From a virus, in the IMG/VR virus record IMGVR_UViG_3300021957_005241, positions 1 to 23,252 of that record: a stretch of 23,252 nucleotides of DNA; one strand, given 5' to 3'. The notes beneath the pieces were generated by a model, which saw only the letters and a list, made by a program, of their open reading frames with translations, was not told the origin of the DNA and searched no databases. Of the stretch, positions 5,331 through 23,252 are shown piece by piece (positions within the stretch are counted from its first letter, which is position 1; every line of letters starts with the position of its first letter). The position numbers and the translations under genes are program-made.

Positions 5331-6560
5331 TTATTTAGGAACGCAATTGTTTACTCTAACTCCACCCTTCATTTTAGTGCCTTGCTTTTTATAGCCTTTC
5401 CAACACTTAGGGTCAAGTCGGGATTTAGATTTCCCTTCGAGTTTTTTAAGTTCATCATAAAGATTGCCTTTATGTTTAACTTCGCCTTTCTTCATATCTT
5501 TCTTCTTATCAGTATGTGTTGCAGGTCTATTGAATTTTTCAATATTCTTTGCTACTGGATTTCTTTTATCATATGATTTAGGCTTTTGAGGTATTGAACC
5601 TTCTTCCATTTGCATGTCATCGAGTTTGTTTTTTGCATCTCTGATTGCATCTTCGAACGGTGCTTCTAATTCGTAAACTGCACTTTCCAAGTTATTCATT
5701 GCTTCATATACTTGACGCTCGTTGTATTCATCTACTTGTATGCCTAACTGTTCTGCTAATGAAGACATTTTAGTTATGATTTGCATGTGTGTATCTGCAT
5801 ACTTAATGTTCTTTGTAATACTTCTTGCTTCTCTAAGACCTGCTTCTAAATCATATATTTTGCTTTCTAAATCAGATTCAGCATCTTCAGTTTGCATTTC
5901 TGGTGCTTGTTGAATAGTCTGTCCTGTTTTCTGCATACGTGCATCACCTTTGGCATTAGCCAAATAGTCTACAAGAAACTTACCACCATATACAGCGGCA
6001 GTAATTCCTAACACAGGTATTTTATATTTAAATATGATCTTAGCGGCTTCAGTTAATGTCTTGATATCAAAGAACTGAGCAAGTTTACTTGTTAACCATC
6101 CGAGAATATCTTTAGCAGTATCTAATTCACCGTCAACTGCATCTAAGGCAATTGTACTTCTAATTGGTCTTTTAGCACCTGCTTTAAGAATTTTTGCTAA
6201 TATAGGAACACCAACACGAAGTAGTGCCAATGGCGCCACTTCGTCTATTTGGGATTCACCTACAAGTTTACCACGCATTGGGTGTGGACTTGAATGTCCT
6301 TTTGTAGGCTTAATTTTCTTTGGCTTTTTGTCACTTGCTTTTGCCTGGCTGGCTTCCGATACCGGGGCACCAGTTATATGCACAGTGGCATTTTTACCTT
6401 TTGAATTAAGAGTATTAGCCATTTTATCTGCTCTTGAGCGACTTGAAACAATCTTCCACGGTTTGTCATTTATACATACCGCATAGTTGTTAGGAGTTTC
6501 GTCCTTGAGCTCATGCTCAATTTCTCTCTTTTTAAAGTCGCTAATCTCAGAAATAATCAT
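5331..6560 (-). CDS. Virion-associated structural-type protein with helical core and Cys-containing tail motif
   Basis: 409 residues. Residues about 24-70 form a small domain (YAVCINDKPWKIVSSRSRAD ... GAPVSEA) seen at the N-terminus of many marine phage proteins. A hydrophobic segment near 180-200 (IPVLGITAAVYGG) could be membrane-inserting. Long charged helices fill 225-310, and the C-terminus (386-409) holds CWKGYKKQGTKMKGG followed by NNCV, a Cys-containing motif also recurrent in such proteins. IDE at 105-107 loosely resembles a prohead-protease site but is followed by Val, so cleavage there is uncertain. It begins 2 nt after the stop of the next structural gene and probably shares its promoter. 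The precise role is unknown; a head-internal or injected protein is a fair guess. Confidence 0.65.
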   Translation of the reverse strand: MIISEISDFKKREIEHELKDETPNNYAVCINDKPWKIVSSRSRADKMANTLNSKGKNATVHITGAPVSEASQAKASDKKPKKIKPTKGHSSPHPMRGKLVGESQIDEVAPLALLRVGVPILAKILKAGAKRPIRSTIALDAVDGELDTAKDILGWLTSKLAQFFDIKTLTEAAKIIFKYKIPVLGITAAVYGGKFLVDYLANAKGDARMQKTGQTIQQAPEMQTEDAESDLESKIYDLEAGLREARSITKNIKYADTHMQIITKMSSLAEQLGIQVDEYNERQVYEAMNNLESAVYELEAPFEDAIRDAKNKLDDMQMEEGSIPQKPKSYDKRNPVAKNIEKFNRPATHTDKKKDMKKGEVKHKGNLYDELKKLEGKSKSRLDPKCWKGYKKQGTKMKGGVRVNNCVPK

Positions 6561-6562
6561 TT

Positions 6563-7171
6563 TTAAGTATTAATATCGCCTAAGTCACTGTTACTGTTTT
6601 GAGATTGTGTGATTGAACCATAGTCTCTAACTGTTACACTGTCACTTGCTAATACAACACTAATTGTACCTGTTCCTGCTGAAGCAGTACCTTGCACAAC
6701 ATTTAGTTTTAGTGTAGCATCTGCTGTATACTCATATTGGAACTGTGAATGATATTGTGCTACTTTAAGCACATCAACATCGCCTGCTCTAATAAAGCGA
6801 GATGTATTATCACTGTCGCCTATTTCTACATAAGTTGCAGTATTGTTTGATGCAGTCCATGCCGCTGGTACGTCAACTGTTACTGAGATGATTCTTGAAC
6901 CTTCAGCAATGTCGGCAATATCACTTGCACCTGAATCAAAGTCAAAGTCAACAGTAATATGCTGGATTAAATCCGCCGTTACTGCATCTAATTGAGCTTT
7001 GGTAACTGCTTCAGTTGCCACTGTAGCGTTTGCAATTTTTAACTTTTGCAGAGCACCACCGTTAGCATAGAAGCCAATTTCGTTTGATGTACCCGTTATA
7101 TACGAGCCTTGCTTACCTAATTCAACGTTAGCACCTAAGCCTGCCAAATTATATTTTTTAACTGTAGCCAT
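6563..7171 (-). CDS. Phage structural protein (conserved marine-phage type)
   Basis: 202 residues beginning MATVKKYNLAGLGANVELG, Gly/Ala/Thr-rich in the first 60 residues, followed by a beta-rich region rich in Val, Asp, Ser and Thr, with no Cys. Composition and the N-terminal pattern match virion structural proteins of marine T4-like phages (from memory of the family); whether it is a head, tail or decoration component cannot be read. The start follows a purine-rich GGGGAATAAAAA leader. A GATAAATA late promoter lies 48 nt upstream, giving it the longest clear late leader of the minus-strand block, consistent with strong expression (inference). Confidence 0.7.
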   Translation of the reverse strand: MATVKKYNLAGLGANVELGKQGSYITGTSNEIGFYANGGALQKLKIANATVATEAVTKAQLDAVTADLIQHITVDFDFDSGASDIADIAEGSRIISVTVDVPAAWTASNNTATYVEIGDSDNTSRFIRAGDVDVLKVAQYHSQFQYEYTADATLKLNVVQGTASAGTGTISVVLASDSVTVRDYGSITQSQNSNSDLGDINT

Positions 7172-7569: not shown

Positions 7570-8629
7570 TCAAAGTATTAAACGTATTGGTTTCTGTTGT
7601 AAGTACATGGACCCAGACCAAACACAGAAGCCTAAGATACTTAAAGAAATACAACAAAACTTTACGGAGAAAGGCACAACTGTAGCATGGTGTAACAGGC
7701 AAGAAAAAGCAGATGCCGAAGACAAGTTATTAGAAGTTGTAACACACAACATGAAAAGTGCATACAACTTAGTTGAATATGTCAGTACACTGCCCGAAAA
7801 CAGACGCATGGTACGTCTTGGTAGTAATCAGATACCCATGGCAACAGAACCCACGTGGCGTTACTTGTGGGAAGACAGCAACAATCGTGCAGAGTTGCAC
7901 AAAGGTTTTGCACGTATAGGTGAACTTGCACGTGCAAAAGATGTGCGTATCAGTTTCCATCCTGGACAGTTTTGTGTGCTTGCCAGTGATAGGCCTGACG
8001 TTGTTGAGCGTAGCATTGATGAATTTGAATATCATGCTAACATGGCACGTTGGATGGGCTATGGTAGAAAATTCCAAGACTTTAAGATTAACGTACACAT
8101 CTCAGGTAGGCAAGGTGCAGAAGGTGTCATCAAGGCTTTGCCACGTTTGAGTCCCGAAGCACTAAATACAATTACAATCGAGAATGACGAGATGTGCCAT
8201 GGCTTAGATGAAAGCCTCAAGTTGAAAGATCACGTAGCACTTGTACTTGACATTCACCACCATTGGATACGAGATGAAGAATACATACAACCACAGGATG
8301 ACAGAGTTAAAGCAGTTATCGACAGTTGGCGTGGAGTTCGCCCTGCTATGCATTACAGTTACAGTCGTGACGAGCATTTACCTGCTGGTGACGATACCCA
8401 CGCTGGTTTGCATGATATCGTGGGACTGCTTGAACAAGGTCATAAGAAACAAAAACTAAGAGCACATTCAGATTACTATCCTAATGACATTGCTAACGAC
8501 TGGGCATTATCGTTTTGGGACCAATTTGATATTCAGTGCGAGGCTAAGGCTAAGAACTTAGCAAGTGAACAATTATACAACAGAGCTATTACAAATGGGC
8601 AAACAAAAAGTATACCTCGACAAGAGTAA
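7562..8629 (+). CDS. uvdE: UV damage endonuclease UvdE
   Basis: 355 residues matching the UvdE TIM-barrel endonuclease family, which nicks DNA 5' to UV photoproducts and begins alternative excision repair. Visible family motifs in order: IGFCCKY (9-15), VRLGSNQIP (84-92), RISFHPGQF (129-137), INVHISG (176-182), IENDE (206-210), LDIHHHW (229-235) and PAMHYS (261-266); the His, Glu and Asp residues in these are the expected metal ligands. Length is typical or slightly long. It overlaps the preceding gene by 8 nt and lies behind the early promoter, which would let the phage repair its DNA and the host's soon after entry in sunlit water (inference on habitat). Confidence 0.9.
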   Translation: MTDQSIKRIGFCCKYMDPDQTQKPKILKEIQQNFTEKGTTVAWCNRQEKADAEDKLLEVVTHNMKSAYNLVEYVSTLPENRRMVRLGSNQIPMATEPTWRYLWEDSNNRAELHKGFARIGELARAKDVRISFHPGQFCVLASDRPDVVERSIDEFEYHANMARWMGYGRKFQDFKINVHISGRQGAEGVIKALPRLSPEALNTITIENDEMCHGLDESLKLKDHVALVLDIHHHWIRDEEYIQPQDDRVKAVIDSWRGVRPAMHYSYSRDEHLPAGDDTHAGLHDIVGLLEQGHKKQKLRAHSDYYPNDIANDWALSFWDQFDIQCEAKAKNLASEQLYNRAITNGQTKSIPRQE

Positions 8630-9842
8630 TAACGAAATCAATTTTACATATATGACCGAGAGCGATATTCGATTGTTGATATCTTTTGGCGACAATGACG
8701 CAGTAGAATACACAACAAATATACAGGAAGCAAATTATATATTCATAATGCTCGGTAAGCCTCATGATCATGATCCTGCATCAATTTCTGAATTCAGTGA
8801 CGCTATAACAAATTTGAGATCGTACAATCCTTCTGCAACTATTGTTATATCAGGTGGTATGTTTCATACAGATGAGTCTGATAACAATCACTCATTAGGA
8901 ATCCTTAGTGACATTATGGCAGGCATAGATAGTAATTGTGTAGCACTCATACTCAATCGTAATTACAAATATATAGAATCCGATAATATACGTTATTACG
9001 ACTTTGTTTTTAATAGATCGCGAATGTCTTATTTTGATCATGATAATGAATATTTTAAAAGAATGTGCCATAGTAGCCAGTGGCCGTTAACATATAAAGA
9101 TGACATTCCTTATGCAGATGCTGAGGCTTATCAGTTAGCAGACTTTACAATTGATGCCAGAAATTCTGATGAGAGATATAACTTAGGTGTACTAAAAACT
9201 TTTTTATCATCAATGTATGCCAGAGAAGAAACCATATACAGCAAAAACAATTCCGGTCATGCAATGGCTGGTCTCAATGATCCAAATGTATTTTTAGTTC
9301 GAGATGCAGTAAGGATTGATTTAAAACATCAACTAAAAAATTATCCTGGATTTGTAGGTGGTGATGGTTCTTGGTTAGCAACAGATGGTGATACTTCCAG
9401 TCAATTAAAACAGACATTAACCCATGGGTTTGCCAACAATGCACCTCCAAGTAAGTTGTATTTTGAATCTTCTGTGGTTAGCATTTATGTTGAAACCGTA
9501 TTAACTAATCCAGACATTTTTTGTGCCTCAGAAAAAACTTTTGTTCCATTAATACAAGGACACTTTATATTACCTTTTGGCGTGGAAAATTTTGTAAGCA
9601 AACTGATTAAAGAATACGATGTAAAGATACCCGATTGGATTGATTGGCAGTACTATGACAGTGAAGTAGATAATTTAACAAGGTGGCTAAAATATAAAGC
9701 AACAGTATTTAATACTCTCAATAAAGGCGAAGATTTTTTGTGGGATTATAAAATGTCTGAAAAAGGACAAAGGATACTACGACATAATCGAGACCTATTC
9801 ACAAGGAATAAAGATTCTTTGCTGTCCGCGATAAATACATAA
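8595..9842 (+). CDS. GT10-like (fucosyltransferase-fold) putative glycosyltransferase 1
   Basis: 415 residues from the ATG at 8595; an in-frame GTG at 8565 would add ten residues but deepen the overlap with uvdE from 35 to 65 nt. About three quarters along (near residue 312) is SEKTFVPLIQGHFILPFG, followed by a Lys-rich helix and IDWQYYDSE. This resembles the xTEKxxxxxxxGxxPxxxG donor-binding motif of GT10 fucosyltransferases and is shared, with variation, by three other proteins in the window. Asp/Asn-rich N-terminal regions are not recognised. No signal peptide or membrane segment is seen. A sugar-transfer role is inferred from this motif alone; donor and acceptor are unknown. Confidence 0.5.
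   Translation: MGKQKVYLDKSNNEINFTYMTESDIRLLISFGDNDAVEYTTNIQEANYIFIMLGKPHDHDPASISEFSDAITNLRSYNPSATIVISGGMFHTDESDNNHSLGILSDIMAGIDSNCVALILNRNYKYIESDNIRYYDFVFNRSRMSYFDHDNEYFKRMCHSSQWPLTYKDDIPYADAEAYQLADFTIDARNSDERYNLGVLKTFLSSMYAREETIYSKNNSGHAMAGLNDPNVFLVRDAVRIDLKHQLKNYPGFVGGDGSWLATDGDTSSQLKQTLTHGFANNAPPSKLYFESSVVSIYVETVLTNPDIFCASEKTFVPLIQGHFILPFGVENFVSKLIKEYDVKIPDWIDWQYYDSEVDNLTRWLKYKATVFNTLNKGEDFLWDYKMSEKGQRILRHNRDLFTRNKDSLLSAINT
9830..9837 (+). promoter_or_regulatory. T4-type late promoter GATAAATA
   Basis: GATAAATA on the plus strand inside the last codons of the upstream gene, 35 nt before the ATG at 9873. A short leader containing TAATAGGA follows. It would let the methyltransferase-sulfotransferase and glycosyltransferase pair be expressed late, independently of the early operon. 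Confidence 0.5.
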
Positions 9843-9872: not shown

Positions 9873-11186
9873 ATGAAACAAACTGAGACTGGAATGTGGC
9901 TACCCACATTAGACACATTCTTTGAAAACAGAGGTGATTACGAAATAAGAGATTATAACATCGCTAAAGGTTATTTTGGAAAAAGGAATAGAGTTGCATT
10001 AGACATTGGAGCACATTGTGGCTATTGGAGTAAACGATTAATCAAAGACTTCAAAGATGTAATTGCATTCGAACCAATTCCAGATCATTACGAGTGCCTA
10101 AAAAAGAACTGTGAGGGTGCAACTAACTTTACAGCAATACAAAATGCAATATCAGAAGCACCTGCTAAGTTATACATGCAACAAACTTTTTCAAACAGTG
10201 GAATGACATCCATTGTAGAAGGCAAAACAGATCTTGAAGTAATGGCAGTGAACTTAGATGCAGTCATTGATCAAAAAGCATTTGTTGATTTTATTAAAAT
10301 AGATGTTGAAGGACACGAAGCAGAAGTTATCAGAGGAGCATTGAGATTAATCAAGCGATGCCATCCAACTATCTTTGTAGAAATATTAGAACCAAAGTCT
10401 ACTAATGGGCAATATGTTGCATCTGCGTTATCCGGCATGGGATATACTTTAGAAAAAACAGTAGAGAAGAATCAAATTTGGCGTTGGACTAAACCCATAC
10501 AGTTCTTACACGTTCCCAAGACAGGCGGCACAGCATTGCGAAATGCACTTAAATTAATACAAGGCAAACCGCTGACTGTACCATATGCTATTAGCAATTC
10601 ACATGAATTTTCTTTGAGCAGTTACAATGATAATGTTGGTGTTATAATCAGAGACCCGTGGAAAAGATTTTGCAGTGGCTTCTGGGAAAGAAAAACTAAT
10701 GATCAAAGACAAGCACTTAACAGTAAAGCAGAACCTACATTTAAAGAACACATAAAAGCAACATACAAGACTTTGACAAAAGTTGAGTCTGAAATATTAG
10801 GACAATGCGAAACACCAAACGACTTAGTAACATATATTAGAAGCAACCCAGATGTAATTCAAACGTTTGCTAAAAGGAACAATAACTATCCTCTGGGAGT
10901 TGTACTTGCACCTATAACGGATTGGTTAGGCACAGTTGATCAATACAAAGCACAAGAACATAAAGTGGGTATTGCATGTAGCACAGGCGAACTCACAAAC
11001 ACAATGCAAGAACATTTTAATATGGAAATGCCTAAAGATCCATTCCTTGCAAGAACACGTAAGCAATTTGATATTAAACAAAGTTATGATTGCACCCCAG
11101 AAAATATGACATTCTTCAAGCAGATGAGAAGTGAGGATTACGCATTGATCAAATATATTATTGCAAGTGAGAAATATGTCGGTTGA
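9873..11186 (+). CDS. FkbM-type methyltransferase fused to a sulfotransferase domain
   Basis: 437 residues with two enzymes in one chain. Residues 1-205 are an FkbM-family SAM methyltransferase: ALDIGAHCGYW (42-52, SAM motif I), FEPIP (66-70) and IKIDVEGHE (141-149). Residues 207-437 look like a carbohydrate sulfotransferase: FLHVPKTGGTALRNAL (211-226) is the 5'-phosphosulfate loop for PAPS and IIRDPWKRFCSGF (258-270) is the 3'-phosphate motif. FkbM enzymes O-methylate sugars and other small molecules; sulfotransferases with these motifs modify glycans or lipids. A joint job of capping a glycan by methylation and sulfation is inferred. The next gene, a glycosyltransferase, starts inside its last codons. 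Confidence 0.82.
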   Translation: MKQTETGMWLPTLDTFFENRGDYEIRDYNIAKGYFGKRNRVALDIGAHCGYWSKRLIKDFKDVIAFEPIPDHYECLKKNCEGATNFTAIQNAISEAPAKLYMQQTFSNSGMTSIVEGKTDLEVMAVNLDAVIDQKAFVDFIKIDVEGHEAEVIRGALRLIKRCHPTIFVEILEPKSTNGQYVASALSGMGYTLEKTVEKNQIWRWTKPIQFLHVPKTGGTALRNALKLIQGKPLTVPYAISNSHEFSLSSYNDNVGVIIRDPWKRFCSGFWERKTNDQRQALNSKAEPTFKEHIKATYKTLTKVESEILGQCETPNDLVTYIRSNPDVIQTFAKRNNNYPLGVVLAPITDWLGTVDQYKAQEHKVGIACSTGELTNTMQEHFNMEMPKDPFLARTRKQFDIKQSYDCTPENMTFFKQMRSEDYALIKYIIASEKYVG

Positions 11187-11907
11187 AAATATTTTAGTAC
11201 TTAAAAATTATCGCATCAACGATCATTCTAAATGGTACAATAATAGAACACAAGAACAAAACCTCATAGAAAACTATAAAGCCATGGAAGGTTTATGTAT
11301 TGAGAGTGCAAAAAGATATGTGCAAGACTTAGATCGTGTACATGTGTTTGAGGGCGATGCCGATAACATAAGAGATGTATTCAAAACAAATTTCTATGAA
11401 ATATACGATTTGTGGAAAGAAGGAAACAATATTCTTTACGCAGACCTTGACGTAGTTTTTATCAATCATGCACGTTACTTTAATAGAACAAAATATTTCA
11501 GCATGTTCAACTACACCGACCCACGTTCAACAGAAGATGATCATTACGACATTGACATAGACCATTTCTTCAATTGTGGTATACGTTATTATCCAGCAGA
11601 TATGCCTCATGAAATTTGGGATATAGGATTTGAGATGTTAGAGAATTGGAATCCTGAACGTTGGGATAGCGAACAAGTTATATACAATGTGATGATGTGG
11701 AGCCAAGATATATCCTTGCAGGATGTACTTAATCCAAAACTTGCTTATCAATATTTGTATGCAGATCAAGAACAGATATGCAATGAATGGAACGGCATCT
11801 CTTATAAAGATTGCAGTGCTGTCCACGTCCATGGTTCACGTGGTAGTGGTGATCGTTTAGCATTGATGACTAAACTATTTACTTGGCAACGAGCCATGTT
11901 TCCTTAA
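11176..11907 (+). CDS. GT-A-type glycosyltransferase with DxD motif
   Basis: 243 residues from the ATG at 11176 (an in-frame TTG at 11161 is a weaker choice). It overlaps the end of the upstream gene by 11 nt. ILYADLDVVF (86-95) is a DxD nucleotide-sugar and metal-binding motif, followed by FFNCGIRYYPADMP and a WDSEQVIYNVMMW stretch, the layout of nucleotide-diphospho-sugar transferases that replace or extend a sugar. VHVHG near the C-terminus may supply a metal-binding His. No membrane segment is seen. With the FkbM-sulfotransferase it forms a coupled pair: one adds a sugar, the other may methylate or sulfate it (inference). Confidence 0.7.
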   Translation: MSVENILVLKNYRINDHSKWYNNRTQEQNLIENYKAMEGLCIESAKRYVQDLDRVHVFEGDADNIRDVFKTNFYEIYDLWKEGNNILYADLDVVFINHARYFNRTKYFSMFNYTDPRSTEDDHYDIDIDHFFNCGIRYYPADMPHEIWDIGFEMLENWNPERWDSEQVIYNVMMWSQDISLQDVLNPKLAYQYLYADQEQICNEWNGISYKDCSAVHVHGSRGSGDRLALMTKLFTWQRAMFP

Positions 11908-13679: not shown

Positions 13680-14780
13680 ATGCGAAAAACACAACAGATA
13701 GACCTATGGACTGGTGGTATTTATGAGTCAACTCTTAACACCACCAATACTGATTTTTATGTAACCATTCTCACAGAATGCAGTTATGTACATGCTGATT
13801 TTAGTAATGATGATAACACATTAGAATATGCATTAGAATGGAAAAGCAAACTGGAAGAACGAAATAATACAATTTCGTTATTGACCAGCAGATGTCAATA
13901 CAACGCCGACGAATACAATGAAGAACAGTATTTGGTTGAACATGTGTTTAAAAATTATGACATGTGGCCATTGTTCTTTATAACATCAGGTACAACAACC
14001 CCCACTAATATTAGAGAATTAGATCCAGAGAATCTATCTGTGCTTTTCTGTTCTATGAATAGAGTCCCTCATGATCATAGACTGACCATGATTGATTTAT
14101 TTGCAAAACAAGATATGATCAACAACAACGATGTTACTTTGGTAATGCCAAACGATAGAGGCGGTACATCTATTTTAGACGGCAACAGTCCACAACGGTT
14201 CAAGTATTGGACAAACCCAAGGCGATTATCGTTCCCCTCTGAAGAAGGATTGATTGAAGATGTAACAAATCTTAGAACGTTGCCTGTAGAGTATTGGCGT
14301 TCGTTAATTGATGTAATAAATGAAAGCAATGACTATTGTCTTTTTTACACTGAAAAAACTGCCAAAGCCATATGGTGTTTGAAGCCGTTTTTAATATTTG
14401 GTTGTAAAAATATAAACACTTATCTCAGAGAGCATGGATTTGAATTGTATGATGAGCTGTTTGATTATTCTTTTGATTCTATAGAAGATAGAGAGTTGAG
14501 ATACGATGCCGCAGTGATTGAACTTAAAAAATTAGAAGGCAAAAATTTACAAGAGCTTTATAAATTAGTGAAACCCAAAGCCATCAGGAATCTACAAAAT
14601 TTATATAAGTTAATACTAAATAATCATGTAGCAGACGAAAAAAAGTATGCTAATTATTTAGAACAACCGGTAGATGTTACCTTACAACTTAACAACTACT
14701 TAAAAGAAGTACAATGCAATACCATCAACGATATCATTGGCTTTGATGGAGATGATGTAAACAATGGCAAAGAAAGATAA
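13680..14780 (+). CDS. GT10-like putative glycosyltransferase 2
   Basis: 366 residues. SMNRVPHDHR (near 121-130) and a later YTEKTAKAIWCLKPFLIFG (223-241), then INTYLREHGFELYDELFDYS, are shared closely with the gene at 14975 and more loosely with two others. The YTEK...PFLIFG segment resembles the donor-site motif of GT10 fucosyltransferases. The last 100 residues are helical and charged. There is no membrane segment. No ribosome site is seen; a late octamer lies 5 nt before the ATG, so the message may be leaderless. Its stop overlaps the bL33-like gene by 17 nt. The enzymatic role is inferred. Confidence 0.5.
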   Translation: MRKTQQIDLWTGGIYESTLNTTNTDFYVTILTECSYVHADFSNDDNTLEYALEWKSKLEERNNTISLLTSRCQYNADEYNEEQYLVEHVFKNYDMWPLFFITSGTTTPTNIRELDPENLSVLFCSMNRVPHDHRLTMIDLFAKQDMINNNDVTLVMPNDRGGTSILDGNSPQRFKYWTNPRRLSFPSEEGLIEDVTNLRTLPVEYWRSLIDVINESNDYCLFYTEKTAKAIWCLKPFLIFGCKNINTYLREHGFELYDELFDYSFDSIEDRELRYDAAVIELKKLEGKNLQELYKLVKPKAIRNLQNLYKLILNNHVADEKKYANYLEQPVDVTLQLNNYLKEVQCNTINDIIGFDGDDVNNGKER

Positions 14781-14967
14781 AAGAAGAACGATAGTGTATA
14801 TGATACCTGAAGGAGAAACCAGAGATCATCATACATATCATTACACAGCAGTTAAAACAAGAGCATTAGTTATTGAGAACAGGAAACTTAAAATGAAAAA
14901 GTATAATCCTGTTAAAAGAAAACATGAGATGTTTGTAGAAGCAAAACTACCACCACACACAAAATAG
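14764..14967 (+). CDS. rpmG: bL33-like ribosomal protein
   Basis: 67 residues, strongly basic. The C-terminal half RKLKMKKYNPVKRKHEMF then VEAKL aligns with bacterial bL33, whose E. coli form reads EKLELKKFDPVVRQHVIY then KEAKI; the N-terminal MAKKDKRR and the YHYTAVKTR strand also fit. It is slightly longer than the usual 50-55 residues because of a loop near 16-26 and a short tail. It has no Cys, so it is of the zinc-free type. In bacteria bL33 sits near the E site of the large subunit. A phage copy may replace or supplement the host protein on ribosomes. It starts inside the end of the GT10-like gene, so the two are co-translated. Confidence 0.75.
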   Translation: MAKKDKRRTIVYMIPEGETRDHHTYHYTAVKTRALVIENRKLKMKKYNPVKRKHEMFVEAKLPPHTK

Positions 14968-14974
14968 AGGCTAC

Positions 14975-16318
14975 ATGTTTAAAAATCCTGACTTACCAGT
15001 TAGAATAATAGATCGCAATTATGTGAATTACACTTTCCCAAACGGATATAGTGATCTCATTGACTGGGTAAAAGATTATCCCAACACAAATTTAGTTATA
15101 TGGCAACCTATGGAGTGGGCACCTTACCATTCATCATGGGGCACTGATAGTGATATCACAGTTAAGAAATTTCAAGACCTCAAACACGCAGTTGACAGTG
15201 TGGGTTCAGAATTAGTGTGGACATTCGGTAGCACAGATCATGCAGAAGATAAAATGTGGTTGACAATTTACGACCAGATGGGTTGCGGACACAGAGATAT
15301 TAATACACGTCAAGAAATAGACAACTATGGTATTTTAGCAATGGACAACGATCTCATGGATACACAACTCATTGCACAACATTTTACTGTTACATTTGAT
15401 CCATATTTTTTCTTACACGATGCAGTAGGTTCAATTGAAGATATAATTACCATGGATGAAGACGACTCTGGGGCACAACCAGATTTTTACAATGACATGA
15501 TTAATAATCCTATAAGCAAAGTGTTTACAAATCTTAACAGAGGTCCATGGATACACAGAGCACAGTGGATAGATCAAATGGCAAAATATGATCTCATAGA
15601 TTCAAATGTGGTATCGTGGAATCAAGAATATATAAGAGGCCAAAACGGAAATTATAAGTTTAAGCATTTTGATCAAAAAATAATAAACGTAGATGCAATG
15701 TTACCCACTGGAGATTCATCTGGTGGATTTGTACTTACTGATGATCGCAATCATCATTTTTCTTATTGTAGAATACCCAACGAATCCACAGACACTCTAA
15801 TTGATATAATCACAGAAAGTAGTCCTATGTTTTACTTCTACACAGAGAAAACATGGAAGTCAGTGTGCAAAGGTAGACCATTTGCAATAGTAGGTCCAAA
15901 AGGTATTAATCATTGGCTACAAGAACAAGGCTTTCAACTGTATAACGAAATCATAGATTACTCATATGATCTACTTGATACACAAGAAGAAAGAAATGAG
16001 CATTTAGCAAAACAGTTAAAAGCACTCGAACAAGCAGACCTAAAAGCATTACAAATATCAGTAGCAGATAAGTTGTTACACAATGCCGCACTTGCAATTC
16101 AAATATGGACAGATAATAACGATAACATACATAATGATCCTATCAGAGCAGGCTTACATGACGACGATTCTGTAATTTATACATGGAAACATGAAAGCGA
16201 AGAAAGACTTGCCCATCATCTTCATTGTGGACATCATGATCCTGTTATGGCCGGCAGAGCACAGGCAGGGTTAAAATTAATCCAGGCATTTGTACATCAA
16301 CTAAAACAAAAAGGTTGA
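14975..16318 (+). CDS. GT10-like putative glycosyltransferase 3
   Basis: 447 residues, the largest of the four related proteins. It has TNLNRGPWIHRAQWIDQ (near 188-204) and YTEKTWKSVCKGRPFAIVG (289-307), then INHWLQEQGFQLYNEIIDYS, closely parallel to the gene at 13680, so the two are probably paralogues from a duplication with the bL33-like gene lying between. The extra C-terminal ~60 residues contain a His cluster (HHLHCGHHDP) that could bind metal. No signal peptide is present. It follows the bL33-like stop by 7 nt with GAGG before the ATG. A glycosyltransferase role is inferred from the GT10-like motif; acceptor and donor are unknown. Confidence 0.5.
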   Translation: MFKNPDLPVRIIDRNYVNYTFPNGYSDLIDWVKDYPNTNLVIWQPMEWAPYHSSWGTDSDITVKKFQDLKHAVDSVGSELVWTFGSTDHAEDKMWLTIYDQMGCGHRDINTRQEIDNYGILAMDNDLMDTQLIAQHFTVTFDPYFFLHDAVGSIEDIITMDEDDSGAQPDFYNDMINNPISKVFTNLNRGPWIHRAQWIDQMAKYDLIDSNVVSWNQEYIRGQNGNYKFKHFDQKIINVDAMLPTGDSSGGFVLTDDRNHHFSYCRIPNESTDTLIDIITESSPMFYFYTEKTWKSVCKGRPFAIVGPKGINHWLQEQGFQLYNEIIDYSYDLLDTQEERNEHLAKQLKALEQADLKALQISVADKLLHNAALAIQIWTDNNDNIHNDPIRAGLHDDDSVIYTWKHESEERLAHHLHCGHHDPVMAGRAQAGLKLIQAFVHQLKQKG

Positions 16319-16429: not shown

Positions 16430-16906
16430 ATGAATAAGAGATTTTATTCAGGTAAAACATATTCGCATTCAACTGGACACAGTTGTGCGTTTAGACAGTG
16501 GCGAGCAACATCGCATTGTAATTTAATTCATGGTTATGCATTACAGTTTGAATTCACCTTTGGTGGAGATGAACTCGACGAGCGTAACTGGATTGTAGAC
16601 TTTGGTGGACTGAAGCCACTTAAAGAATGGTTGAAAACTACATTCGATCATACTTACTTGGTAGCAGAAGATGACCCAGAGTTGGACACGTTTGTAGATT
16701 TAGCAAAGAAGGATTTAGTAGATTTACGAATTGTTACTCACACTGGTTGTGAGAGGTTTGCTGAAATGGCTTTTGACAAAGCAGATGAAATTGTTAAAGA
16801 ATTAACAGATGGCAGATGCTGGGTACAAAGAACTACAGTAAGAGAGCATGAGCATAACAGTGCTACTGTTGAACTCAACGACCATACTAAAGTAAAATTT
16901 AATTAA
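16430..16906 (+). CDS. queD: 6-carboxy-tetrahydropterin synthase-like (QueD/PTPS family)
   Basis: 158 residues of the QueD/PTPS T-fold family, which makes the 7-deazaguanine precursor of queuosine (tRNA) or of deazapurine DNA bases. TGHSCAFRQWRA (15-26) and SHCNLIHGYAL (28-38) contain likely zinc ligands H17 and H34 and catalytic-type C30. The usual HGH is HGY here, a form I associate with a QueD subgroup of marine and alphaproteobacterial genomes. NWIVDFGGL (53-61) and DHTYLVAEDDPE (73-84) are typical. REHEHNSA near the C-terminus holds the expected Glu. No other pathway gene (queC, queE, folE) is in the window, so it must work with host or distant phage enzymes. Confidence 0.85.
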   Translation: MNKRFYSGKTYSHSTGHSCAFRQWRATSHCNLIHGYALQFEFTFGGDELDERNWIVDFGGLKPLKEWLKTTFDHTYLVAEDDPELDTFVDLAKKDLVDLRIVTHTGCERFAEMAFDKADEIVKELTDGRCWVQRTTVREHEHNSATVELNDHTKVKFN

Positions 16907-16986: not shown

Positions 16987-17014
16987 CCCTCAACAGACGT
17001 GTTGGGGGTTTTTT
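16987..17014 (+). terminator. Strong rho-independent terminator between convergent genes
   Basis: A 9-bp stem (CCCTCAACA with TGTTGGGGG, one T-G wobble) with a GACG loop, followed by TTTTTT. It ends the queD transcript. On the minus strand the same hairpin is followed by CTTTTAC, so it may also stop the gene from 18296. Confidence 0.9.
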
Positions 17015-18296
17015 ATTGCACTTCTATTTTTGATATTCCTTCTAACATCAAATTAACAAGAAAATCTGTATCTCTAAACAGCATCATATTGTGTAATGCA
17101 TCTTTGCGATACTGTTCATGTGATACTTTTGCTTTATGATCTTTAATTATAAAATCAGTTATTGCTTCTCTTCTTTTACCACCAGACAACTCGTCCCAAC
17201 CAAAATCAGGTATTCTAAATCCTATTCTGCTTAATTCAGTATCTGCTCCTGCGGCACCTAATACTAATGGGGTGATTCCATTTAGCAATAATCTAAATGT
17301 TTTCTCAGTTAAAAATCCTTGAGGATTGATATATGCTGGATGTTCCTTGAGTGTGAATGTTTCTAATGACACACCCCATCTAACATCTCTACCCCACGTC
17401 CAGTCGTTGGTAGCAAAGTCTTCGAATCTTGTAGGTAAGTCTGGTAATGAACGTGGTAACTTTTTCTCGTATGCTTTGATAAACTTTTTGATATTTTTAT
17501 CAGTGTTTTTCTTTGCAGTATCTTGGTGAGTTTTAATATTAGGAGTATTGTTGAATTCATATTTTAAGTACCCGTCCTTTTTGCTCCATGCCATTGACCA
17601 CAAGCAATCATCTAATACTTTTTTTGCATGTAAGTCTGCAATCATTTTTATACGTGATTCTCGAGGTTTTCTCACTGGCAGGAATGCATGATACTTGAAT
17701 TTATTGCTGTCGCGACTATCTAAGATAGAATGAAATAGCACACCTGCTTCTTCAGAGTTGAGATATCTTTCGTCTACTGATTGAGCAACAATCAAAGCAA
17801 ACAAATTTGCATTTGGTAACACTGTACAATTTGGTATATCTGTTTCTTTAAAGTTGTATCCAGTTGTGTGTAAGTATAAGTTTTTAGGCTTAATACCAAA
17901 TGCATCTATTATTTGGATTAAATTTGTTCCTAAGAAACTACCACCTTCTATATAATCATATATCATTACGTTACATGTTTTCAGCAAAGACTTTGCATAA
18001 TGCTTAGGTAACTTAATAAAGTCTCTATCAGATATTTCAAATACCACATGTTCATAATCTGTACTACTTGCTAATAGTCTTTCGCAACTGATTCCATTAA
18101 TACCAAATAATTTTCCAACAGCAATACCTTTAGCATGTGTTTGTGAGATAAAACTTTCGCTACACATATTTTTGATATTCTTATAAAACCAACCCATATT
18201 ATATGTGTCACACGAAGGACCTAAAAATATGTCTATTATACCAGGATTTGACTCTTGTGCTACAAAATCGGTAGCAATTTTTTCTATAACTATCAT
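17013..18296 (-). CDS. GT10-like putative glycosyltransferase 4
   Basis: 427 residues. An AFLPVRKPRESRIKMIADLH segment near the middle parallels the NRxPxxHR segment of the genes at 13680 and 14975, and LTEKTFRLLLNGITPLVLG (329-347) is the closest of the four to the classical TEK...GxxPxxxG motif of GT10 fucosyltransferases. The N-terminal ~190 residues are not recognised; IFLGPSCDTY near 23-32 is the most striking part. There is no membrane segment. It is transcribed opposite to its neighbours, from a perfect TATAAATA 26 nt upstream, and ends within the terminator of queD. Sugar transfer is inferred; donor and acceptor are unknown. Confidence 0.55.
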   Translation of the reverse strand: MIVIEKIATDFVAQESNPGIIDIFLGPSCDTYNMGWFYKNIKNMCSESFISQTHAKGIAVGKLFGINGISCERLLASSTDYEHVVFEISDRDFIKLPKHYAKSLLKTCNVMIYDYIEGGSFLGTNLIQIIDAFGIKPKNLYLHTTGYNFKETDIPNCTVLPNANLFALIVAQSVDERYLNSEEAGVLFHSILDSRDSNKFKYHAFLPVRKPRESRIKMIADLHAKKVLDDCLWSMAWSKKDGYLKYEFNNTPNIKTHQDTAKKNTDKNIKKFIKAYEKKLPRSLPDLPTRFEDFATNDWTWGRDVRWGVSLETFTLKEHPAYINPQGFLTEKTFRLLLNGITPLVLGAAGADTELSRIGFRIPDFGWDELSGGKRREAITDFIIKDHKAKVSHEQYRKDALHNMMLFRDTDFLVNLMLEGISKIEVQ

Positions 18297-20307: not shown

Positions 20308-21594
20308 ATGACACAAGATTCTCCTACGTTATCATGTAATTTCTGCGGAAAGAATAGAGATCAAGTAGAAAAACTAATTGCAGGACCTGATGTATACATT
20401 TGCAATGAATGTATAGAGCTGAGTTACAATATCACAGTTACTGAAAAGTCTGAAGAGTTTGACATAGAAGAACTTGACAATTTACTTACACCAACAGAAA
20501 TTTATAATAAGTTAGACGAATATATAATTGGTCATGCAGGTGTAAAAGAGTTATTAAGTGTTAGTGCATATAATCACTACAAAAGAATAGCATTTAATCG
20601 ATCAGAAGATTTTGATGTTGACACACTCGACAAGTCAAACATATTACTTATGGGTAATACAGGAACAGGTAAAACCTTGTTTGCAAAAACATTGGCTAAA
20701 ATACTAAATGTACCAATGACTATTGCTGATGCAACAACATTAACTGAAGCAGGTTATGTTGGGGAGGACGTTGAAGGTGTTATTGAACGTTTGCTTACTC
20801 TAACTAATTGGGATAAGGACAGTGCTGAAAAAGGAATTATATTCATTGACGAGATAGACAAGAAGGCTCGTAGGAGCGAATCTAACACTGCTACACGTGA
20901 TGTAAGTGGTGAAGGCGTTCAACAAGCACTATTAAGATTAATTGAAGGTACAATAGTAAAAATTAAAATGGGGAACAGTAAACGGTTAGCAGGTGACGAG
21001 TTTATAGAATTTGATACCAGCAATATACTGTTTATAATGGGGGGTGCGTTTGTTGGGTTAGACAAACTCATCGAGAAGAGATTAAAGAAGAAGTCCGGTA
21101 TAGGATTTGGGTCCACAGTATTAGATGCTACGGAATCTAAAAAGTTAACAAAATTAGCAACACATGATGATTTTGTAACCTTTGGCCTAATTCCAGAGTT
21201 AGTCGGACGAACTCCTTTAATTGGTATACTTGACCAGTTCGAGACTGAGGATTTTAAGAAAATATTATCCTCAGTCAAGAACAATATTTTAAGTCAAGTT
21301 AAGGTATTATTTGACATAGACAATATACGTATTGAATTTGGTGATGACTACATTACTTATGTAGCCGAACAAGCCGCAACTAAGAGTTTGGGTGCAAGAG
21401 CAATTAAGACTTTAGTTGATCAAAGTTTAATAAGTTTAATGTTTAGAGCACCAGATCTTCACAATAAAGATGTGGCTATGATAAAATTAAATAAATATCC
21501 ATTGACAAAAGAAGATTTTCCTGTATTATATTACAGTAATAACGAATCAGAAATTGATAGAAACTATAAACTGCATGGCGCAGAGGACTTATGA
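20308..21594 (+). CDS. clpX: ClpX-type AAA+ unfoldase
   Basis: 428 residues, full length beside E. coli ClpX (424). The N-terminal zinc domain has C10, C13, C32 and C35. The AAA+ core has Walker A GNTGTGKT (116-123), pore-1 GYVG (149-152), Walker B IIFIDEID (177-184), a pore-2-like RDVSGEG (197-203), arginine-finger GR (300-301) and sensor 2 near GARAIK. The RKH loop is altered (NSKRLAGDEF). The IGF loop (265-267), which docks ClpX on ClpP, is kept, so it could redirect host ClpP to new substrates, such as host regulators or phage scaffolds (inference). No clpP is in the window. Its stop overlaps the bS21-like start by 4 nt (ATGA). Confidence 0.95.
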   Translation: MTQDSPTLSCNFCGKNRDQVEKLIAGPDVYICNECIELSYNITVTEKSEEFDIEELDNLLTPTEIYNKLDEYIIGHAGVKELLSVSAYNHYKRIAFNRSEDFDVDTLDKSNILLMGNTGTGKTLFAKTLAKILNVPMTIADATTLTEAGYVGEDVEGVIERLLTLTNWDKDSAEKGIIFIDEIDKKARRSESNTATRDVSGEGVQQALLRLIEGTIVKIKMGNSKRLAGDEFIEFDTSNILFIMGGAFVGLDKLIEKRLKKKSGIGFGSTVLDATESKKLTKLATHDDFVTFGLIPELVGRTPLIGILDQFETEDFKKILSSVKNNILSQVKVLFDIDNIRIEFGDDYITYVAEQAATKSLGARAIKTLVDQSLISLMFRAPDLHNKDVAMIKLNKYPLTKEDFPVLYYSNNESEIDRNYKLHGAEDL

Positions 21595-21983
21595 GCAAAA
21601 ACTTTAAACCAAATAACTTCAATAAGAAGTTTGACAACAAAAAACCATACTCAGCACCGAGACCGAGAATTCCAGGTACAAGTGTTGAAGTGAGAAATGG
21701 TGATGTTAACGGAGCAATTCGTAGACTAAAAAAGATTCTTGAAAACGACAACCGTCAAAAAGAATTAGCAAAAAGAGAGTACTACGAAAAACCAAGTGCT
21801 AAACGTAAACGTGTTAAAGATCAAGAAATCCGTAGACACAAAAAAGAACTACTTAAAAAGATTCAATCCGGTTCTGAACCATATCAGGAAACAGGCGGAC
21901 TCAAACATCTTAAGGGTAAGAGATCAAGAAGAAAACACGCAATGCTAAAGGATATGTTTAGCAGAGCTAACCGCAGAAGGTAG
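21591..21983 (+). CDS. rpsU: bS21-like ribosomal protein with N- and C-terminal extensions
   Basis: 130 residues, very basic. The centre, from SVEVRNGDVNGAIRRLKKIL through KREYYEKPSAKRKRVKDQ to IRRHKKELLK, aligns well with bacterial bS21 (E. coli core RRREFYEKPTTERKRAKA). bS21 sits on the small subunit near the mRNA exit and anti-Shine-Dalgarno region and affects start-site choice. The phage form adds about 30 Asn/Pro-rich residues in front and about 40 basic residues behind. Phage bS21 genes are known from pelagiphages and from large phages. It is coupled to clpX by an ATGA overlap, linking translation and proteolysis functions in one unit. A role in favouring phage mRNAs is inference. Confidence 0.88.
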   Translation: MSKNFKPNNFNKKFDNKKPYSAPRPRIPGTSVEVRNGDVNGAIRRLKKILENDNRQKELAKREYYEKPSAKRKRVKDQEIRRHKKELLKKIQSGSEPYQETGGLKHLKGKRSRRKHAMLKDMFSRANRRR

Positions 21984-22766: not shown

Positions 22767-22841
22767 ATGGAATATGCATTGGCAGGAATGTTTTTTACTT
22801 TACTGGTAGTCTGGATAGTAATAAAATCTGAGGACAAATAA
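22767..22841 (+). CDS. 24-residue single-span membrane peptide
   Basis: A very short frame, MEYALAGMFFTLLVVWIVIK followed by SEDK, forming one membrane helix with a charged C-terminus. GGAG lies 6 nt before the ATG and the TAA overlaps the next ATG by one base, so it is likely a real coupled gene. Its position directly before a cytochrome c recalls the tiny subunits of respiratory complexes (CcoQ-like), but the sequence alone is too short to assign. Confidence 0.55.
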   Translation: MEYALAGMFFTLLVVWIVIKSEDK

Positions 22842-23252
22842 TGAGTGAATTATATAAAGCAATAGTTGGTTGTGTTGCAATAGCAACTTTTTTTATTTTT
22901 ATGATTATGCCTAACATGGCATACAGTGGCTACAGCAGTAGCAGTTCATGTACAGACGAATGCTATGAACAGTATGTAGCACTAAATGGTACAGCACCAG
23001 AGATAGAGCAACGCAAACAAGCATTGGCTAACTTGGACGAGTTTAGTGACATCAGAAGTTTATGGGGCGGTTGTGCCGCATGTCATGGAGCAGAAGGACA
23101 AGGTATGGCAGTATTCCCTAAACTTGCAGGACAAAATAAAGACTACATTGTGAGCAGACTTAATGCTTACAAGAATAGAGAAACAGTTGGCAACATGAGT
23201 TCAACTATGTGGTCACAGGCAGGAATGCTAAGTGATGCACAAATGGATATGA
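22841..23252 (+). CDS. Class I c-type cytochrome with signal peptide (3' end outside window)
   Basis: 137 codons are visible before the window edge. Residues 5-29 are a hydrophobic export signal or anchor ending near PNMAYS. A Cys pair (37, 41) precedes the haem domain. GGCAACHGAEGQG (76-88) holds the CxxCH haem site (C78, C81, H82), followed by PKLAGQNKDYIVSRLNAYK (93-111), which is typical of cytochrome c4/c5-like or cbb3-linked mono-haem domains. M119 or M123 could be the sixth ligand. Maturation would need the host Ccm system and periplasmic export. A phage electron carrier to sustain host respiration is inferred. It is coupled to the 24-residue peptide by TAATG. Confidence 0.85.
   Translation, partial: MSELYKAIVGCVAIATFFIFMIMPNMAYSGYSSSSSCTDECYEQYVALNGTAPEIEQRKQALANLDEFSDIRSLWGGCAACHGAEGQGMAVFPKLAGQNKDYIVSRLNAYKNRETVGNMSSTMWSQAGMLSDAQMDM

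Follow-up and report, generated by a model that had tools for sequence, protein, structure and literature searches.

A fused FkbM methyltransferase-sulfotransferase gene overlapping a glycosyltransferase gene in a phage, and its possible role in glycan tailoring

The fused gene and its neighborhood

The window, i.e. the whole stretch of DNA analyzed here, is a virus record of 23,252 bases, which as a whole recovered no match in a megablast search. It contains a run of genes on the plus strand in which a single ORF combining two enzymatic domains is followed by an overlapping glycosyltransferase gene:

8565-9842, plus strand: ORF of 425 aa preceding the fused gene in this run, probably a further glycosyltransferase by a weak GT10-like 'SEKT/TEKT' motif
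9873-11186, plus strand: fused FkbM methyltransferase-sulfotransferase gene, 437 aa
9873-10487, plus strand: FkbM methyltransferase arm, residues 1-205 (HMM match over residues 5-203)
10002-10022, plus strand: SAM-binding motif I (DIGAHCG) at residues 44-50, with G46 and G50 identical in all five aligned sequences
10491-11183, plus strand: predicted sulfotransferase arm, residues 207-437
10509-10532, plus strand: 5'-phosphosulfate-binding loop HVPKTGGT, residues 213-220; F211, H213, P215, K216 and G219 invariant in eight sulfotransferases
10602-10604, plus strand: candidate catalytic base His244
10650-10676, plus strand: 3'-phosphate-binding motif RDPWKRFCS, residues 260-268; R260, P262, R265 and S268 invariant in eight sulfotransferases
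11176-11907, plus strand: predicted GT-A-fold glycosyltransferase, 243 aa from ATG 11176 (248 aa from TTG 11161)
11443-11451, plus strand: DxD motif of the glycosyltransferase, D90-L91-D92

The N-terminal arm of the fused protein recovers the Pfam family PF05050 over residues 44-184 with 70.5 bits against a cut-off of 22.7 (E = 2.5e-19) and the NCBIfam model TIGR01444 with 90.9 bits against a cut-off of 37.7 (E = 9.8e-26). It matches the family along its full length and shares with it both the SAM motif, in the form of DxGxxxG at residues 44-50, and the K-I-D-V-E-G-x-E motif, present as KIDVEGHE at residues 142-149. Judged by family score and motifs, this arm is an FkbM methyltransferase, with O-methylation of a sugar or natural product as its putative activity. 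It aligns end to end with the stand-alone phage proteins L011, L020 and Mosig_00190 and stops where those proteins stop. Since the stand-alone phage FkbM proteins finish approximately where the sulfotransferase starts, the two domains appear to be joined with almost no linker. The other phage relatives are all stand-alone proteins of at most 361 residues, mostly of about 200-260 residues, without a match to the sulfotransferase profile in any of them, whereas the fused protein carries a C-terminal sulfotransferase. A phmmer search of the fused protein against the PDB yielded no useful match.

The preliminary description had the end of the fused gene overlapping a DxD glycosyltransferase gene. 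The overlap is indeed present, but the start chosen there (TTG 11161) did not hold up: an alignment of relatives favors ATG 11176 as the better start, with an overlap of 11 bases rather than 26. An AlphaFold2 model of the product (pLDDT 79.4, pTM 0.84) matched glycogenin, blood-group and other GT6/GT8 enzymes in Foldseek searches (probability 1.00, E from 8.6e-6), and phage glycosyltransferases were also matched. Combined with the DxD motif, whose D90 and D92 are invariant in six aligned sequences, the model indicates that the partner gene encodes a GT-A-fold glycosyltransferase, and this prediction stands. Because no Pfam GT family is matched at E <= 1, the gene is named by its fold without a family; its placement in family 8 (PF01501) was dropped for want of a Pfam match.

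The motif of the upstream ORF, T/SEKT...PF..G, is common to four large ORFs of the window (8565-9842, 13680-14780 and 14975-16318 on the plus strand and 17013-18296 on the minus strand), and on the strength of this signature all four may be GT10-like glycosyltransferases. The ORFs starting at 13680 and 14975 are clear paralogs (30% identity, E = 4e-26), and those at 17013 and 8565 seem related by the motif only. The profile of this family recovers a fucosyltransferase as its sole PDB match, with an E-value of 0.72. Homologs of the ORF at 8565-9842 occur at the same place in the contigs L008 and L012, and the one from L008 reaches an E-value of only 0.055 against PF00852. Elsewhere in the window are a phage-borne ribosomal protein S21 gene (14764-14967, PF01165, 6.5e-13), a ribosomal L33-like 67-aa ORF (21591-21983, 22.3 bits, under the cut-off of 25) and, running past the window end, a gene for a cytochrome c domain protein (22841-23251, PF00034, 2e-7), which adjoins a cytidylyltransferase-cupin gene, an arrangement kept in the related contig L129.

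The C-terminal sulfotransferase arm

The C-terminal arm scores marginally against PF03567 (Sulfotransfer_2), with 22.8 bits over residues 208-324, i.e. 0.8 bits above the cut-off of 22.0; its counterpart in the related contig L003 reaches 26.8 bits in a genome search. Owing to this marginal score the arm was examined by further means. A profile constructed from seven phage sulfotransferases, with that of the window left out, gave 35.2 bits on the fused protein in a search of that single protein. A profile-profile comparison with hhalign returned a probability of 96.8% for the arm over just 68 columns, namely those with both phosphate-binding motifs. A protein from a bacterial MAG, L024, aligns with the arm over about 150 residues (29% identity, E = 5e-10), including a TPNDL segment outside these motifs that the two share. 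Finally, a profile combining the arm with its bacterial relatives recovered heparan sulfate 6-O-sulfotransferase 3 (5t03, E = 6.7e-6), with the bacterial rows adding to the score.

This nearest solved relative of the profile and the Sulfotransfer_2 family at large share both phosphate-binding motifs with the arm, which differs from the family in being situated behind a methyltransferase and, relative to the stand-alone phage sulfotransferases, in its longer middle region. The combination of an FkbM domain with a PAPS-type sulfotransferase domain in one 437-residue chain, as first proposed, is therefore reflected in the scores of all three family models, marginally so for PF03567, and the two phosphate-binding motifs reported with it are present. 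As for conservation of catalytic residues in homologs, a histidine occupies the column of His244 in every sulfotransferase row of our alignment A6, where it could act as the catalytic base. The structure prediction suggested at the outset gave a model of the fused protein with a pLDDT of 52.5 (AlphaFold2, 13-sequence alignment), and the best 50 PDB matches listed in a fold search with it were of the methyltransferase type where recognizable, with no sulfotransferase among them; the assignment of a sulfotransferase fold consequently rests on sequence.

The role of phage sulfotransferases has been described as unclear (PMC10580990). The impression that they are uncommon agrees with deposited phages, as far as tblastn can tell: the arm recovered no match among 50,697 phage records, and searches with two further phage sulfotransferases matched only these proteins themselves or two records. 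It does not extend to environmental phages, as nine PF03567 Sulfotransfer_2 matches were found in a single 139-kb viral contig (IMGVR_UViG_3300042731_009106, our G007). A different group of phages has a PF03567 sulfotransferase gene (L021, 4977-5582; also in L022 and L023) that overlaps an APS-kinase-family gene (5575-6366; PF01583, 47.8 bits against a cut-off of 21.1), with which these phages might provide the sulfate donor themselves. In G392, which is related to the window phage, a 256-aa ORF (L134, 1501-2271) combines an APS-kinase-like with a nucleotidyltransferase-like domain (PF01467, weak).

Recurrence, selection and the variable slot

The fused gene model is present as an ORF of equal length, 437 aa, in two further IMG/VR contigs, L002 and L003, which indicates that it is neither a chance ORF nor a frameshift artifact. 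L002 is identical to the window across the stretch of the fused and glycosyltransferase genes. The L003 version is 97% identical, with 86 nucleotide differences resulting in just 14 residue differences; its frame remains intact despite these substitutions, and an assembly artifact was rejected on this ground. The dN/dS ratios between the window and L003, 0.067 in the methyltransferase arm and 0.041 in its sulfotransferase partner, show that purifying selection acts on both.

These values bear on whether the C-terminal arm might be a degenerate or re-purposed P-loop domain devoid of sulfotransferase activity, perhaps one that binds glycans as a partner to the methyltransferase arm. Such a decayed state would be consistent with the marginal Pfam score, the poor alignment of the second, C-terminal half of the domain with the sulfotransferase profile, and the AlphaFold model, which gave no confident fold. 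Yet the arm retains both phosphate-binding motifs and the candidate histidine, evolves under the constraint just described, and is clearly related to bacterial proteins scoring above the Pfam cut-off, making its inactivity improbable in our view. The prediction that the second arm is a PAPS-type sulfotransferase, just over the Pfam cut-off and backed by the independent profile and the bacterial relatives, stands.

The fused state is restricted in the material searched: among the best 80 viral relatives of the methyltransferase arm there was no further fusion beyond the two contigs of the window lineage. In a sample of 385 alphaproteobacterial genomes none of the matches listed spans both arms, and the loci fetched from these genomes contain no ORF with both domains, leaving an import of the whole fusion from alphaproteobacteria unsupported. 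Longer bacterial sulfotransferase ORFs (L150, L152 and L154) were considered as possible fusions, and no methyltransferase domain was found in them.

The glycosyltransferase has a wider distribution. Besides the two contigs with the fusion, it occurs in eight related loci at 56-60% identity, and L054 and L059 supply two more. In the longer relatives the gene order is UvdE, a variable slot, the glycosyltransferase, a 96-aa protein, a SleB hydrolase, a nuclease, QueD, ClpX and S21. The slot is occupied by a stand-alone FkbM gene in L129 and L130, by a Methyltransf_24 gene behind an ORF related to that at 8565-9842 in L131 and L133, and in the window by the fusion behind that ORF itself; in L132 it is empty. 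L132 also encodes, between SleB and the nuclease, a 303-aa ORF (5488-6399, equivalent to 7926-8837 of L015) with PKGASTS and REPVDRW motifs, which looks sulfotransferase-like by eye and attains an hhalign probability of only 20%. An FkbM gene overlaps the glycosyltransferase gene in L054, L059 and L011, a truncated FkbM gene precedes it in L010, and in L020 an FkbM gene adjoins a sulfotransferase gene. Because the FkbM-glycosyltransferase overlap also exists without a sulfotransferase, the simplest history is one in which a sulfotransferase of bacterial type was added in frame between the members of an older FkbM-glycosyltransferase pair.

Proposed function and comparison with known phage systems

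The preliminary description envisaged that the enzymes together add a sugar and cap it by methylation and sulfation on a virion or cell-surface glycan. Two observations favor their acting together: the overlapping methyltransferase-glycosyltransferase pair, which is conserved in relatives, and an island in the cultured Pelagibacter phage Mosig EXVC030M (MT647606); adding and capping a sugar on such a surface is their putative role. That island (Mosig_00183-00191) is a row of overlapping genes encoding the same types of enzymes as the window: two FkbM proteins, glycosyltransferases and one PF03567 sulfotransferase. Mosig_00190 shows 33% identity to residues 1-202 of the fused protein. In contrast to the window, all the Mosig enzymes are separate genes; its sulfotransferase is only distantly similar to the fused arm (blastp E = 0.032), and no protein of the island significantly matches the window glycosyltransferase. 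A joint task of these enzymes in glycan modification is favored by the Mosig island, the neighboring FkbM and sulfotransferase genes of L020 and the fusion itself.

Taken together, we give about an even chance to the locus being a glycan-tailoring cassette, with its product most likely on a host envelope glycan. The GT-A glycosyltransferase, acting in the cytosol, would transfer a sugar from a nucleotide sugar onto an acceptor, and the fused enzyme would O-methylate (FkbM arm, using SAM) and O-sulfate (sulfotransferase arm, using PAPS) that sugar or a neighboring one, so that a single polypeptide makes two caps. The cassette would have arisen from the older FkbM-glycosyltransferase pair through the in-frame gain of the bacterial-type sulfotransferase. 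Alteration of a host envelope glycan, such as an O-chain or capsule precursor, might then change phage receptors during infection. As no APS kinase is encoded in the window record, PAPS would have to be supplied by the host or by a portion of the genome lying outside the record; the APS-kinase-like protein of G392, absent from the window, was not used as an argument for a supply of its own in the relatives.

Among the possible acceptors we consider host envelope glycans the most probable, followed by the virion and then by DNA. The choice of a host-surface acceptor as the most likely one draws on analogy: a study of pelagimyophages proposes that their GT8-type glycosyltransferases, encoded among lipopolysaccharide/glycosyltransferase genes, alter the O-chain of the host and thereby shut out other phages, a role like that proposed for the cassette; sulfotransferases and methyltransferases are unmentioned in it (PMC7029224). 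A search of four related contigs, possibly fragments, revealed no T4-type Gp23 capsid gene.

Alternatively, the glycosyltransferase could glycosylate a capsid or tail protein, with the fused enzyme methylating and sulfating that glycan. Glycans on the capsid and tail tube of mycobacteriophages have been reported (cited in PMC12619734), and an ORF (6563-7171) situated some 2.7 kb from the cassette weakly matches a PHROG of unknown function and may be structural. As against this, no structural protein could be confidently named in the window and no link between the cassette and virion assembly was apparent; decoration of the virion is hence unlikely, if still a serious competitor. A third potential acceptor is a sugar on a modified base, whose methylation and sulfation would shield the DNA against restriction. 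In this regard, a QueD-like 7-deazaguanine gene is present nearby (16430-16906) and DNA-hypermodifying glycosyltransferases of phages are known (cited in PMC12619734). However, neither a base hydroxylase nor a DNA-modification glycosyltransferase family was recognized within the window, and L132, with its empty slot, still has QueD. Furthermore, the usual targets of FkbM and Sulfotransfer_2 enzymes are small molecules and glycans, and we hold DNA modification to be very improbable.

Returning to the glycan-tailoring cassette, a more specific version can be put forward tentatively, with somewhat less than even confidence: the fused protein may be a bifunctional enzyme that attaches both a methyl ether and a sulfate ester to a single glycan, having arisen when a sulfotransferase was inserted in frame into an FkbM-glycosyltransferase operon; the swappable slot of the phage lineage would then determine whether a surface sugar of the infected cell or virion is capped with methyl, with methyl and sulfate, or not at all. 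The domain fusion is new, whereas the module belongs to an already known kind of phage glycan modification. The covalent linkage of a sulfotransferase to a sugar-type methyltransferase, along with the overlap with a glycosyltransferase gene, points to a glycan substrate in a manner that can be tested. Given this arrangement and a slot that holds other modifying enzymes or none in related phages, the window phage, a marine-type phage, probably alters surface-sugar chemistry, and the position between UvdE and the glycosyltransferase offers a natural series (no enzyme, FkbM, Methyltransf_24 and FkbM-sulfotransferase) in which the effect of each cap may be followed.
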